49,037 bases of DNA from the IMG/VR virus record IMGVR_UViG_3300047554_000187, positions 1-49,037 of that record; one strand, given 5' to 3'. Positions 22,121 to 35,937 of this stretch are shown here, one piece after another. Each line of letters starts with the position of its first letter. Position 1 is the stretch's first letter. Source of the stretch: a virus. The notes beneath the pieces were generated by a model. It worked only from the letters and a program-made list of their open reading frames with translations, was not told the origin of the DNA and searched no databases. A program made the position numbers and the translations under genes.

Positions 22121-22478
22121 TGTTAAAAAAAACTTTTTTTCATCATTTTTTGCCATTTTTGGGCATTTTTGAAAAATAAATCTGCGCGATTCCTAGAAAC
22201 CATTGTACTTTACGAGGAAATATTGGGGGTAAGTCTTGACTCGTATTTCATTAAAGTATTATAATTGCCCATCGGTTCGCCAAACGAGGCACACCACTCA
22301 GTCCTGAGAATTTTAATGAGCCAATCGGCTTCGCCCCAATGCGAGGGCAGAACAAGAGGGCATCGAAGCCCGCGTTCTTTGACATAATGGAATAAGCAGT
22401 GTGACACCTTCAATGGTGCGAGGTTCGAGAGACCCCATTGCGACACACTCAGTGAGACGGGTGTTAATGTAATCAAAT

Positions 22479-22533
22479 GACTAGCCCAAGCGTAAGGGAT
22501 GTGGCAGAGGCTCGCAACCTCTCCTAGTCACCA
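22479..22533 (+). ncRNA. Truncated tRNA-like element with ACCA end, 55 nt
   Basis: The 5' strand GACTAGC (22479-22485) pairs with CCTAGTC (22523-22529) except at the seventh position (C/C). A T arm with 5-bp stem AGAGG/CCTCT and 7-base loop CTCGCAA fits the tRNA geometry exactly, with the acceptor strand starting right after it. A discriminator A and encoded CCA follow (22530-22533). Only 20 bases lie between the acceptor 5' strand and the T arm, too few for D plus anticodon arms. It lies directly before a repeated hairpin leader and the gene at 22591. Confidence 0.5.
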
Positions 22534-22549
22534 AATCAAATCAATTTCT

Positions 22550-22582
22550 AACTTTCCCTTCCTGTGTAGGTCAACAGGCTTG
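22550..22582 (+). promoter_or_regulatory. Repeated hairpin leader, copy A1 (33 nt)
   Basis: A 33-base sequence identical to 23185-23217. It contains the hairpin CCTGT-GTAGGTCA-ACAGG (22561-22578), ending 12 bases before ATG 22591. Both copies follow a tRNA-like element and precede a start codon, so it is probably a 5' untranslated control element. Confidence 0.6.
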
Positions 22583-22590
22583 AAAACAAA

Positions 22591-23130
22591 ATGACAACAT
22601 TCAAACAAACAAGAAAAGTAGGTGTAGCGGGTGGATTTTTCAATCAGTTAATGGGCAACAACTCAAGCGTACCTGTAGTAGGCAAGGGGGCAACAATCCT
22701 GATGTATTCTGACCGCGATGCATACCAAGTCACTTGGGTTTCTGACTGCGGTACGAAGTGTCACATCAACCCTGCGATTATGAAGTATACAGGAACAGGA
22801 TATGGTGATGAGCGGTACGAGTATCAAGGCTACAGAGAAGATTGCTACCAAGAAATAGTTTGGCATAAAGGCGCTTGGTGTCAGGTAGAAAATCACATCA
22901 AATATGAGCCTAAGTTTGAGCGTATGATGAACGAAAAATTCCACGACAAGGGCAAGTATTGGTTCGGGTCTAACGCAGACGATGAGGCGAAAGCGATGGG
23001 TATCAATAACTTGTTCAATGAGGACTGCAGACTTAACTTGGTGGCAGGTATCACAAAAATGATTAAGCGCTACCACAAGGTGTCTATTTTATTCGGGTCA
23101 ATTGATAAGTATCGTGACCCATCATTCTAA
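22591..23130 (+). CDS. Conserved-type phage/plasmid protein of unknown function, 179 aa
   Basis: First gene of the plus-strand programme. The segment VGKGATILMYSDRDAYQVTW (residues about 30-49) recalls a family in phages and mobile elements, with '(G)KGAT.LMYSDR.AY' followed by a conserved Lys-rich region, but no function is known to me. There are several Cys (SDCGTKC, REDCYQ, AWCQ) and many aromatic residues. The ATG follows the hairpin leader A1. Early expression suggests a role in host take-over or defence evasion (inference). Confidence 0.7.
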   Translation: MTTFKQTRKVGVAGGFFNQLMGNNSSVPVVGKGATILMYSDRDAYQVTWVSDCGTKCHINPAIMKYTGTGYGDERYEYQGYREDCYQEIVWHKGAWCQVENHIKYEPKFERMMNEKFHDKGKYWFGSNADDEAKAMGINNLFNEDCRLNLVAGITKMIKRYHKVSILFGSIDKYRDPSF

Positions 23131-23172
23131 TCTAGCTTGGAGCAGGCAGGGGTTCGATTCCCCTGCTAGATT
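23130..23172 (+). ncRNA. Minimal tRNA-like element: acceptor stem plus T arm only, 43 nt
   Basis: ATCTAGC (23130-23136) pairs perfectly with GCTAGAT (23165-23171). The T arm is canonical: AGGGG, loop TTCGATT, CCCCT (23148-23164), joined directly to the 3' acceptor strand, with T23172 in the discriminator position. Only 11 bases separate the two parts, so D and anticodon arms are absent. A competing stem GCAGGGG/CCCCTGC is possible. It starts on the last base of the preceding stop codon and leads into leader copy A2. No CCA is encoded. Confidence 0.55.
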
Positions 23173-23184
23173 CTTTTAATTTTC

Positions 23185-23217
23185 AACTTTCCCTTCCTGT
23201 GTAGGTCAACAGGCTTG
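23185..23217 (+). promoter_or_regulatory. Repeated hairpin leader, copy A2 (33 nt)
   Basis: Exact repeat of 22550-22582. The hairpin CCTGT / ACAGG ends at 23213, 14 bases before ATG 23228. Confidence 0.6.
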
Positions 23218-23227
23218 TTAATTACTT

Positions 23228-23815
23228 ATGTTACAATCAGCAAAAAACCTAGTAAAGTTTGTTCAAAAGTTCAACCCATCTGATGAAGCGGTGATTTCAT
23301 TAGGTATCAATCGCTTTGAAGAAGTGGAGGCGTTCTTACACCTTAACAAGGGTAATGGTGGTAAGATATTCTCTCAAATTATGCCGACACTAGGCATCGA
23401 ATTTGACGCAAGATTATCTAGCGATAAATGCTCACAATATCTTGATTTAGTAGGCGAGGTTGATGGCTACAAGGTTAAGCTAACATTCCTTAAGGAGATT
23501 GAGTTTGTTGACATCACGAGGGGTAAGAAAATCCTTCCTGATTCTGACGATGAAATCATTTCAAATTATGTAGCTACATCTTCACCTCTATTTGACGCAG
23601 TATTAAAGAAAGATTACGCGTTGAGAATGAACGTTGAAGAGTGGATAAAATTCGAAAAGGCATTCGAAAAAGAAAACTTTGAAGCAATCGATACATTCAT
23701 TAACAGATTCGATGATTTTAATATGTTAATGGGTTGCGCTTTTTCTTGGAGCAGAACTGAAGAAGGCACTGATTATTGGAGCAAAATAGCCAATAGAACG
23801 AAAAACGTATTATAA
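23228..23815 (+). CDS. Early protein of unknown function, 195 aa
   Basis: Soluble, charged protein with mixed helices. It begins MLQSAKNLVKFVQKFNPSDE, has a beta-like centre (YLDLVGEVDGYKVKLTFLKE) and an acidic/aromatic C-terminal helix region (EEWIKFEKAFEKENFEAID). No family was recognised. It is preceded by leader A2 and followed after one base by a 28-codon membrane peptide gene. Confidence 0.65.
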   Translation: MLQSAKNLVKFVQKFNPSDEAVISLGINRFEEVEAFLHLNKGNGGKIFSQIMPTLGIEFDARLSSDKCSQYLDLVGEVDGYKVKLTFLKEIEFVDITRGKKILPDSDDEIISNYVATSSPLFDAVLKKDYALRMNVEEWIKFEKAFEKENFEAIDTFINRFDDFNMLMGCAFSWSRTEEGTDYWSKIANRTKNVL

Positions 23816-25176: not shown

Positions 25177-25206
25177 ATCACGACCTTGCGGTGTATAGGC
25201 AACCGC
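25177..25206 (+). promoter_or_regulatory. Repeated hairpin leader, copy B1 (30 nt)
   Basis: A 30-base sequence identical to 25631-25660. Hairpin GCGGT-GTATAGGCA-ACCGC (25188-25206) ends 8 bases before ATG 25215. An alternative stem is TTGC/GCAA. It shares the shape, and a similar loop (GTA-AGG-CA), with the 33-base leader family. Confidence 0.6.
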
Positions 25207-25631: not shown

Positions 25632-25660
25632 TCACGACCTTGCGGTGTATAGGCAACCGC
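25631..25660 (+). promoter_or_regulatory. Repeated hairpin leader, copy B2 (30 nt)
   Basis: Exact repeat of 25177-25206, again ending 8 bases before an ATG (25669). The fixed distance to the start codon in both copies argues for a translation-level role. Confidence 0.6.
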
Positions 25661-25668
25661 ACAATCTT

Positions 25669-25929
25669 ATGAATGTCAGAGAAATTTTAGAAACCAACAA
25701 CGACTTGCGCTCACGCTATGCTGAGGCAATCAGAAACTTTTGCAAGGAACGTATGTATTCTAATTCGGGGGACAAAGAAGCACCCGCTATCAGAAACATT
25801 ATGGACATCTTCTTTTGGATGGGCGAAATCTCAGAGAAGCAGATGGATTGGGTAGTACGCTACGCTACCAAGAATAGAATTACCGAGGCAACAACAAATT
25901 CCACAAGCAACATTTTAACCGAGCAATAA
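25669..25929 (+). CDS. Early protein of unknown function, 86 aa
   Basis: ATG 25669 follows leader B2; the GTG frame from 25645 is rejected for the same reason as above. A helical protein (VREILETNNDLRSRYAEAIR, IMDIFFWMGEISEKQMDWVV) with a Thr/Ser-rich tail. The segment 'SEKQ..W..RYA' resembles small helical motifs in phage replication-associated proteins, but no family can be named. Confidence 0.65.
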   Translation: MNVREILETNNDLRSRYAEAIRNFCKERMYSNSGDKEAPAIRNIMDIFFWMGEISEKQMDWVVRYATKNRITEATTNSTSNILTEQ

Positions 25930-29012: not shown

Positions 29013-29035
29013 TTAAAACTAATGTTGTACATTTG
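28997..29035 (+). promoter_or_regulatory. Replication-gene promoter with overlapping inverted repeat (operator)
   Basis: TTG (29005-29007), 20 bases, TACATTTG (29028-29035) matches the Bacteroidota promoter. A perfect 9-bp inverted repeat AACATTAGT (28997-29005) / ACTAATGTT (29018-29026) covers the -33 box and the spacer, the usual place for a repressor site. Downstream are the attenuator-like leader and the genes for a 72-aa protein, initiator and helicase. Confidence 0.65.
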
Positions 29036-29041
29036 AATCGT

Positions 29042-29140
29042 ACAATCGGATGAGGTGAAGTTGCGGTCATCTCATTCGGTATTCAAGGCAACTTGAACCG
29101 CCCCCTTACCTACGCAACAAGGTTTGGGGGTTTATTTTTT
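29042..29140 (+). promoter_or_regulatory. Attenuator-like leader before the replication operon
   Basis: Expected start of transcription is near 29042. The leader can form AAGTTGC (29059-29065) / GCAACTT (29088-29094). Then comes a terminator-like hairpin, CCCCC-tt-ACC (29101-29110) with GGT-tt-GGGGG (29121-29130), followed by TTTATTTTTT and at once ATG 29141. TTGCGGT, GGCAAC and ACCGC, the paired parts of the 30-base leader family, recur here in the same order with longer spacing. A conditional terminator is likely. Confidence 0.6.
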
Positions 29141-35519: not shown

Positions 35520-35612
35520 AGTCAGGTAGCTTAAAGGTCATAAGGAAATTGACCCTTGAGGATTAGAGCACTCGAAAGAGATGAGGTGCGGGTTCGATTC
35601 CTGTCCTGACTA
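35520..35612 (+). ncRNA. tRNA-like element 3, 93 nt, non-standard body
   Basis: AGTCAGG (35520-35526) pairs perfectly with CCTGACT (35605-35611), followed by A as discriminator. T arm: GCGGG, loop TTCGATT, CCTGT (35588-35604), with two G-U pairs. The body does not give a normal D and anticodon arm. Its strongest helix is GGTCA / TGACC around a 9-base loop, and there is a CTC-GAAA-GAG tetraloop hairpin. A serine- or leucine-type long variable arm was considered, but no plausible anticodon loop was found. No CCA is encoded (ACTA follows). Confidence 0.5.
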
Positions 35613-35673
35613 CTAGAGAGAACCGTTAGTTTTCGGCTGTTTACAACTGGAAAACTAGCAGACGTCATACTCT

Positions 35674-35816: not shown

Positions 35817-35937
35817 AGACAATAGGCGGGGGAGGAACACGCACTGAAAGTATGCAAACCTAGAGATTGAAGTCAGGATGAGCTGTCGCATACTACTGAA
35901 GGCTCACATTTCACAGGTTCGAATCCTGTATTGTCTA
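35817..35937 (+). ncRNA. tRNA-like element 4, 121 nt, with large insertion
   Basis: AGACAAT (35817-35823) pairs perfectly with ATTGTCT (35930-35936); A follows. T arm is perfect: ACAGG, loop TTCGAAT, CCTGT (35913-35929). A D-like arm is possible just after the acceptor (GCG ... CGC with a G-rich loop). In place of an anticodon arm there is a long segment closed by AGTATGC (35849-35855) / GCATACT (35888-35894). Too short for a group I intron, too long for a normal tRNA. The 3' flank ACTA is the same as in element 3. Confidence 0.5.

Follow-up and report, generated by a model that had tools for sequence, protein, structure and literature searches.

Minimal tRNA-like helices at gene junctions of uncultured phages and their probable role in message processing

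What purpose might be served by an RNA segment that keeps the acceptor stem and T arm of a tRNA, dispenses with everything else, and stands at the junction of two phage genes? The question is raised by the window, the whole stretch of 49,037 nucleotides analysed here, which is the 49-kb record of an uncultured phage whose terminase large subunit matches PHROG 6681 and is ~32% identical to those of Flavobacterium, Cellulophaga and related phages. We describe the element, follow it through close relatives and more distant virus records, and weigh the functions that its structure and surroundings suggest.

The element and its register

A first-pass annotation of the locus had proposed two helices, a 7-bp acceptor and a T arm, and both are present on the plus strand. 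The feature, referred to here as element b, spans 23129-23175 and reads on the RNA strand AATCTAG CTTGGAGCAGG CAGGGG TTCGATT CCCCTG CTAGATT CTT, its 44-base core (23129-23172) holding the tRNA acceptor stem and T arm only. In the register consistent with the wider family, the acceptor pairs 23129-23135 (AATCTAG) with 23166-23172 (CTAGATT) over 7 bp, the T stem pairs 23147-23152 (CAGGGG) with 23160-23165 (CCCCTG) over 6 bp, the loop at 23153-23159 is the canonical TTCGATT, and a CTT tail ends at 23175; the register given earlier, a 5-bp T stem with ATCTAGC/GCTAGAT, describes the same structure and assigns one pair to the other helix. D and anticodon arms are absent, as had been said, but the arms are not directly joined: acceptor and T arm are separated by an 11-nt linker (23136-23146, CTTGGAGCAGG) with a conserved TTGG that had been overlooked and that could stand in for the D-loop GG. 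Nor does the helix begin right after the upstream stop codon, whose TAA (23128-23130) shares two bases with the acceptor.

A strict scan of both strands (seven Watson-Crick acceptor pairs, a linker of 8-14 nt, five Watson-Crick T-stem pairs and a TTCRANN loop) finds element b, in its two registers, as the sole match in the window, and 200 dinucleotide-preserving shuffles of the window yield none, in agreement with the earlier judgement that chance formation is very unlikely. Positions 23129-23172 are reported neither as tRNA nor as tmRNA by ARAGORN, nor by Rfam at its gathering threshold with the tRNA model included, and a permissive Rfam search returned chance-level matches only, except for a tRNA-like one at 35520. 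Two familiar identities were rejected on architecture: a canonical tRNA gene would have D and anticodon arms in place of the family's 9-13-nt linker, and that linker leaves no room for the tag ORF or pseudoknots of a tmRNA, of which ARAGORN reports none.

Longer tRNA-like elements with a tRNA acceptor and T arm and no usable anticodon arm are a separate observation. They occur in the window at 35520-35613 and 35817-35937 and form clusters in relatives (L110, L112, L116, L121, L122 and L123), often sharing an AGTCAGG/CCTGACT acceptor and an ACAGG TTCGAAT CCTGT arm around interiors of 33 to 130 nt. An unannotated tRNA-like sequence ending in ACCA also lies inside the tRNA cluster of Pseudomonas phage vB_PseuGesM_254 (OR575930.1, ~25763-25836).

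Thermodynamic prediction gives a divided picture. The T-arm hairpin is stable in every predicted fold, while RNAfold makes the acceptor pairs only ~2% likely in context and scores element b at -14.2 kcal/mol vs. -16.8 for an alternative fold with a longer T stem, a calculation that treats the linker as a large bulge and ignores coaxial stacking over it as well as any T-loop/GG contact. Because folding energy alone is unconvincing, the case for the element rests on comparison, and the acceptor, as judged from sequence, rests on covariation and not on folding energy.

Covariation in relatives and the wider family

The terminase search supplied 79 loci, 27 of which are 73-99% identical to the window over the matched part. 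Strict elements are found in ten of these close loci (L006, L007, L009, L010, L011, L016, L017, L026, L027 and L028), in each case at the matching site ahead of the terminase operon and on the strand of the divergent operon. A slightly weaker element occupies the corresponding place in L022, further weak covariance-model matches do so in L013 and L032, and 15 of the 19 records searched have a model match at E <= 0.1; in L018 and L019, more distant terminase relatives read by eye, there is no element. Element b itself scores 53.4 bits with model R1 and 64.1 bits with model R2, both of which were built from elements chosen partly for pairing, so that their E-values are rough. MAFFT misaligned the acceptor of copies with long linkers, and R1 rests on edited linkers because the helices were realigned with linkers trimmed.

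Across 14 distinct elements from close relatives, both sides change in 10 of 12 pairs and 98% of cells are paired, compared with 38-51% when the partners are slid against one another. In a second alignment, A4, which gathers 29 elements from many phages, compensatory changes affect 10 of 13 pairs. Both sets were collected with some demand for pairing, and the invariant TTGG, GG/CC and TTCGATT columns of A4 were mostly demanded by the search pattern and prove nothing; the C that directly follows the helix in 29/29 rows was not so demanded. Compensating changes in both stems, the evidence that the first-pass annotation had called decisive, are thus present among relatives.

The element can also be separated from the genes beside it. 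A related structure with a longer linker, element a, lies on the same strand at 22478-22533 (R1 28.4 bits, E 1.9e-4), with a TGACTAG/CTAGTCA acceptor, the T arm AGAGG CTCGCAA CCTCT and a following CCA, and L006, L011 and L022 have homologues of it in that position. Between elements a and b runs a plus-strand ORF of 179 aa (22591-23130), the one whose TAA overlaps element b. In the window, L006, L007 and L011 the intervening ORFs are unrelated to one another and the flanks are kept. Homologues of the 179-aa ORF in distant, unrelated phages (L001-L004) lack the element, which therefore belongs to the locus, and its interpretation as part of the 179-aa gene is ruled out. As an aside, the gene at 22591-23130 resembles an exchangeable cassette.

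Beyond the window's own phage group, a search with the pattern CTAGCTTGGAGC...GGTTCGATTCC led to a 23-kb virus record (G019, locus L187) in which short ORFs follow one another in a run with minihelices of differing stems (AACCTAG, AATCTAG) between them. Behind each minihelix there comes a small hairpin (GCCAC..GTGGC, GCCC..GGGC) and then the next ATG, and the array comprises seven strong matches and one partial, most of them between a gene's stop and the next start. Another record, G025, likewise has seven, one locus of it (L327) placing the element after a gene several times within 6 kb, and G023, G024, G026, G027 and G029 have four to five each.

A looser sequence pattern, demanding no pairing outside GG...CC, gives 113 matches in viral contigs, 82 of them distinct. 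In this covariation test, free of the pairing demand made of the two alignments, a full T stem together with a full acceptor is found in 26 of the 82, vs. 1.25 expected if the 3' flanks are redistributed. Run against 84,980 bacterial and archaeal species genomes of GTDB, this pattern returned 52 matches (43 distinct), none of the 43 fully paired. All carriers found are uncultured; six chosen annotated genomes (the crAss-like cr126_1, cr106_1 and PhiCrAssBcn1, together with Lak-B5, elemoA and P1) contain no element, and BLAST of single elements against annotated phages was discarded, everything it returned being either a T-arm match within a genuine tRNA region or short and due to chance. That the structural family is real we regard as close to certain. 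Its members combine linkers of 9-13 nt with an acceptor/T-stem stack of 12-13 bp and a T loop; most carry C(T/A)N at the position of the tRNA CCA, an encoded CCA being found only after element a of the window, L006 and L007 and the other copies having CTA, CAA, CAG or CTT. In a further record (G020, locus L329) we observed an array of longer elements with a short D-stem-like GCTTGGTAGC and a following hairpin; this virus may have a quite different host.

Gene junctions and exchange with hammerhead ribozymes

Family members sit at junctions between genes. Among 57 model matches, 46 have a stop codon within -9 to 40 nt and an ATG-initiated ORF within 75 nt, a combination shown by 8% of positions drawn at random on the same strand of those loci, with the reservation that some matches were found by pattern and some loci are close relatives, so that the counts are not independent. 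Orientation is equally constrained: for 42 elements from virus records outside the window's own group, flanking by an ORF end and an ORF start is seen on the element's own strand in 38 and on the opposite strand in one. U occupies position -1 in 24 of 50 copies, a preference explained in part by overlapping TAA stops; elsewhere in the family the stop is found either outside the helix or within the acceptor. A transcription-terminator reading was rejected, since across the family no conserved U run follows the helix on its 3' side, although the copies of L327 do lead into CTAAATTTTTT.

What follows the element is also regular. A hairpin of at least 5 bp comes after 28 of 50 elements, compared with 13% of other windows upstream of ORFs, and in many copies this leader hairpin begins 2-3 nt past the helix. 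In the window, a leader hairpin CCTG TGTAGGTCAA CAGG (23196-23213, plus strand) stands between element b and the ATG at 23228 that opens a 195-aa ORF (23228-23815, plus strand), and a second copy (22561-22578, plus strand) stands between element a and the ATG at 22591. Similar hairpins, with the loop TGTA(TA)GGNNAA, were noticed at 25188-25206 and 25642-25660 and in many relatives, shortly upstream of many early-gene ATGs; their stems vary with pairing kept (GCGG/CCGC, TCGG/CCGA, CCTG/CAGG, ACGA/TCGT, TTGG/CCAA, TCCG/CGGA), and they are possibly a translation or stability signal.

Two other stretches of the region deserve mention in their own right. The first tRNA-like element is separated from a promoter-like site by 200-400 nt of apparently non-coding and probably structured RNA (~22265-22477 in the window, ~7700-7424 in L007, ~7690-7295 in L016), unrelated in sequence across relatives. 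Farther along the window, at ~29030-29140, a promoter-like TACATTTG, ~100 nt without an ORF and a terminator-like CCCCCTTACC..GGTTTGGGGG TTTATTTTTT succeed one another, an arrangement that possibly encodes a small RNA.

The same kind of junction is occupied in other members of the phage group by type I hammerhead ribozymes with the TAA stop in stem I (two in L009, and others in L010, L014, L017, L022 and L026). A motif scan places these locus hammerheads always on the gene strand, and Rfam Hammerhead_1 scores two of the records above its cut-off and others just below. In L112 (phage G003), the first gene past the tRNA-like element ends in a TAA within the type I hammerhead sequence GTGTAACTGATGAG...GAAAC...GTCTTACAC, which is succeeded by a leader hairpin and the next ATG, and the following junction has another hammerhead. 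Hammerhead and minihelix junctions thus have a common layout of stop, element, leader hairpin and ATG. The exchange is most direct between G001 and G004: their downstream proteins share 90% identity over 136 aa and their leaders are identical from the hairpin to the start codon, but ahead of the leader G001 has a minihelix where G004 has a hammerhead. G009, with a downstream protein of 52% identity, likewise has a hammerhead. The minihelix is not itself a hammerhead, an identity rejected because the catalytic core (CUGANGA...GAAA with three stems) is absent from it and from the whole window. Prophage hammerheads are known to flank single genes or short gene blocks, several have been shown to cut, and a role in processing long transcripts has been proposed for them (Perreault et al. 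2011, PMC3088659). Because the minihelix stands in for a self-cleaving ribozyme, the simplest view is that it does the ribozyme's job.

Proposed punctuation of phage messages, its alternatives and known systems

In light of these observations we consider it likely that the element acts as RNA punctuation, whereby polycistronic phage mRNA is cut by the host's own enzymes of tRNA processing, RNase P or RNase Z or the two together, and a processing function is probable for the family as a whole. A processing site was among the roles raised by the first-pass annotation, and this one is backed by the intergenic place, the tandem arrays, the hammerhead exchange at homologous junctions and the compensating changes. 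Under this proposal the nascent RNA would fold into a stack of 12-13 bp, the acceptor resting on the T stem, with a tRNA T loop at its end and possibly with the linker GG mimicking the D-loop contact, and host tRNA-processing enzymes would mistake it for a precursor tRNA. RNase P would cut on the 5' side, at or beside the stop codon of the upstream gene, and RNase Z, instead or alongside, on the 3' side. The downstream gene, in the window the 195-aa ORF, is predicted to be freed as an mRNA of its own with a small leader hairpin near its 5' end and then its start codon, and the gain would be separate control or stability of single-gene messages; a hairpin at the 5' end of a bacterial mRNA could slow decay.

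Which enzyme would act is suggested differently by different features. The hairpin made of acceptor stem and T-stem-loop is a classic model substrate of RNase P (PMC11143913), which measures the acceptor/T-stem stack (PMC4919913), and the human RNase Z, ELAC2, clamps a minihelix of acceptor and T arm (PMC11996679). A length of 12-13 bp, the T loop and a possible GG at the elbow fit RNase P and are compatible with RNase Z too, and the mostly absent CCA and the likeness to the hammerhead 3' cut site fit RNase Z; C(T/A)N in place of CCA would weaken the usual contact of RNase P with the 3' end. In the window, moreover, RNase P cutting at the 12-bp position would split the TAA and deprive the message of the upstream gene of its stop codon, an outcome that would either be costly or serve to restrain that gene.

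A form of the same proposal in which only the 3' side is cut, by RNase Z or another tRNA 3' endonuclease, is a possibility that we hold tentatively. The upstream message would keep the minihelix as a 3' cap and the downstream one would start with C(T/A)N and the hairpin. Junction hammerheads would likewise cut at their 3' side, stop codon and ribozyme staying on the upstream message, and the frequent start of the leader hairpin 2-3 nt past the helix agrees with such a cut. CCA is described as an inhibitor of bacterial RNase Z, and its rarity in the family points the same way. The C found after the helix in every A4 row sits less comfortably with this form, as we know of no requirement of RNase Z for it. 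A role free of cleavage, in which the element would form a stable 3' or 5' structure and so protect messages or insulate the translation of neighbouring genes, seems unlikely: the persistence of the T-arm hairpin in all predicted folds and the simple GGGCGG..CCGCCC hairpins at some other L327 junctions are in its favour, but a stability hairpin needs no invariant loop of TTCGATT type, two-part stack of 12-13 bp, TTGG linker or C past the helix, and the exchange with self-cleaving ribozymes would be left unexplained.

The decoy, primer and recombination-site readings rank low. That the freed RNA of 43-44 nt is the end product, serving to decoy or inhibit RNase P, the CCA-adding enzyme, EF-Tu or a tRNA-targeting host defence, is improbable in our judgement. 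Tandem arrays would provide many copies per transcript, and tRNA-like clusters with variable interiors do occur at other places in these genomes; a decoy, however, would not be expected to be tied strictly to gene junctions and stop codons or to be exchanged with hammerheads, and nothing was found in favour of the decoy or primer envisaged in the first-pass annotation. Least probable of all is a function at the DNA level, as a recombination or attachment site for cassette exchange or as relics of tRNA genes, notwithstanding that the window, L006, L007 and L011 differ in the ORF enclosed by the two elements and that early phage regions are mosaic: covariation keeps the pairs while the letters change, as it would not in relics, orientation is locked to transcription (38 vs. 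1), and a ribozyme can replace the element.

Returning to punctuation by host tRNA enzymes, we think it on balance probable that dedicated minimal tRNA mimics form a widespread, undescribed phage RNA family that turns those enzymes into mRNA processors and is freely exchanged with ribozymes. If so, the smallest substrate of RNase P or RNase Z, long a laboratory model, is also a natural gene-punctuation device, and one and the same junction in phages can bear either a cut mark that depends on protein or a ribozyme that cleaves itself. This opens to testing how single-gene output is set within operons, in phages of hosts that rarely use Shine-Dalgarno sequences. A covariance model now exists for an RNA missed by current tRNA finders and Rfam, and the elements may offer compact parts for multi-gene expression.

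We liken the element to tRNA punctuation and to the RNase P model substrate, cleavage, which defines both, being what we infer here; on the sequence evidence it has the acceptor/T-stem stack and T loop of an RNase P substrate and the placement of a punctuation mark, between upstream stop and downstream start, on the transcribed strand and repeated along the operon. In the open full-text literature (subscription journals and preprints lay mostly outside the search) we found no earlier description of minimal tRNA-like punctuation in phage mRNA, nor of tRNA punctuation in phage messages, the papers there concerning mitochondria and plastids. AT1, the acceptor stem and T stem-loop of tRNAPhe (PMC11143913), has the same stacked helices and T loop and also lacks D and anticodon arms, but it is a laboratory construct, whereas the phage element is natural, lies inside mRNA, has a conserved TTGG linker and is mostly without CCA. 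Natural non-tRNA substrates of RNase P, namely T4 gene 32 mRNA, P1/P7 C4 RNA, M3 RNA, tmRNA and the tRNA-like ends of plant viruses, resemble the minihelix in being tRNA-like structures within other RNAs, yet none is reported in that source (PMC11143913) as a dedicated intergenic element repeated in arrays. In organelles, too, tRNA shapes between coding regions mark the cuts and stop codons abut or overlap them; those marks are working tRNAs, whereas the phage minihelices cannot decode. The hammerheads of phages and prophages (PMC3088659) share the position and presumed job of the minihelix and interchange with it in the window's phage group, but they cut themselves, whereas the minihelix, without a catalytic core, would need a host enzyme. 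Engineered tRNA-gRNA arrays, finally, would have in these phage tRNA mimics their natural counterpart.
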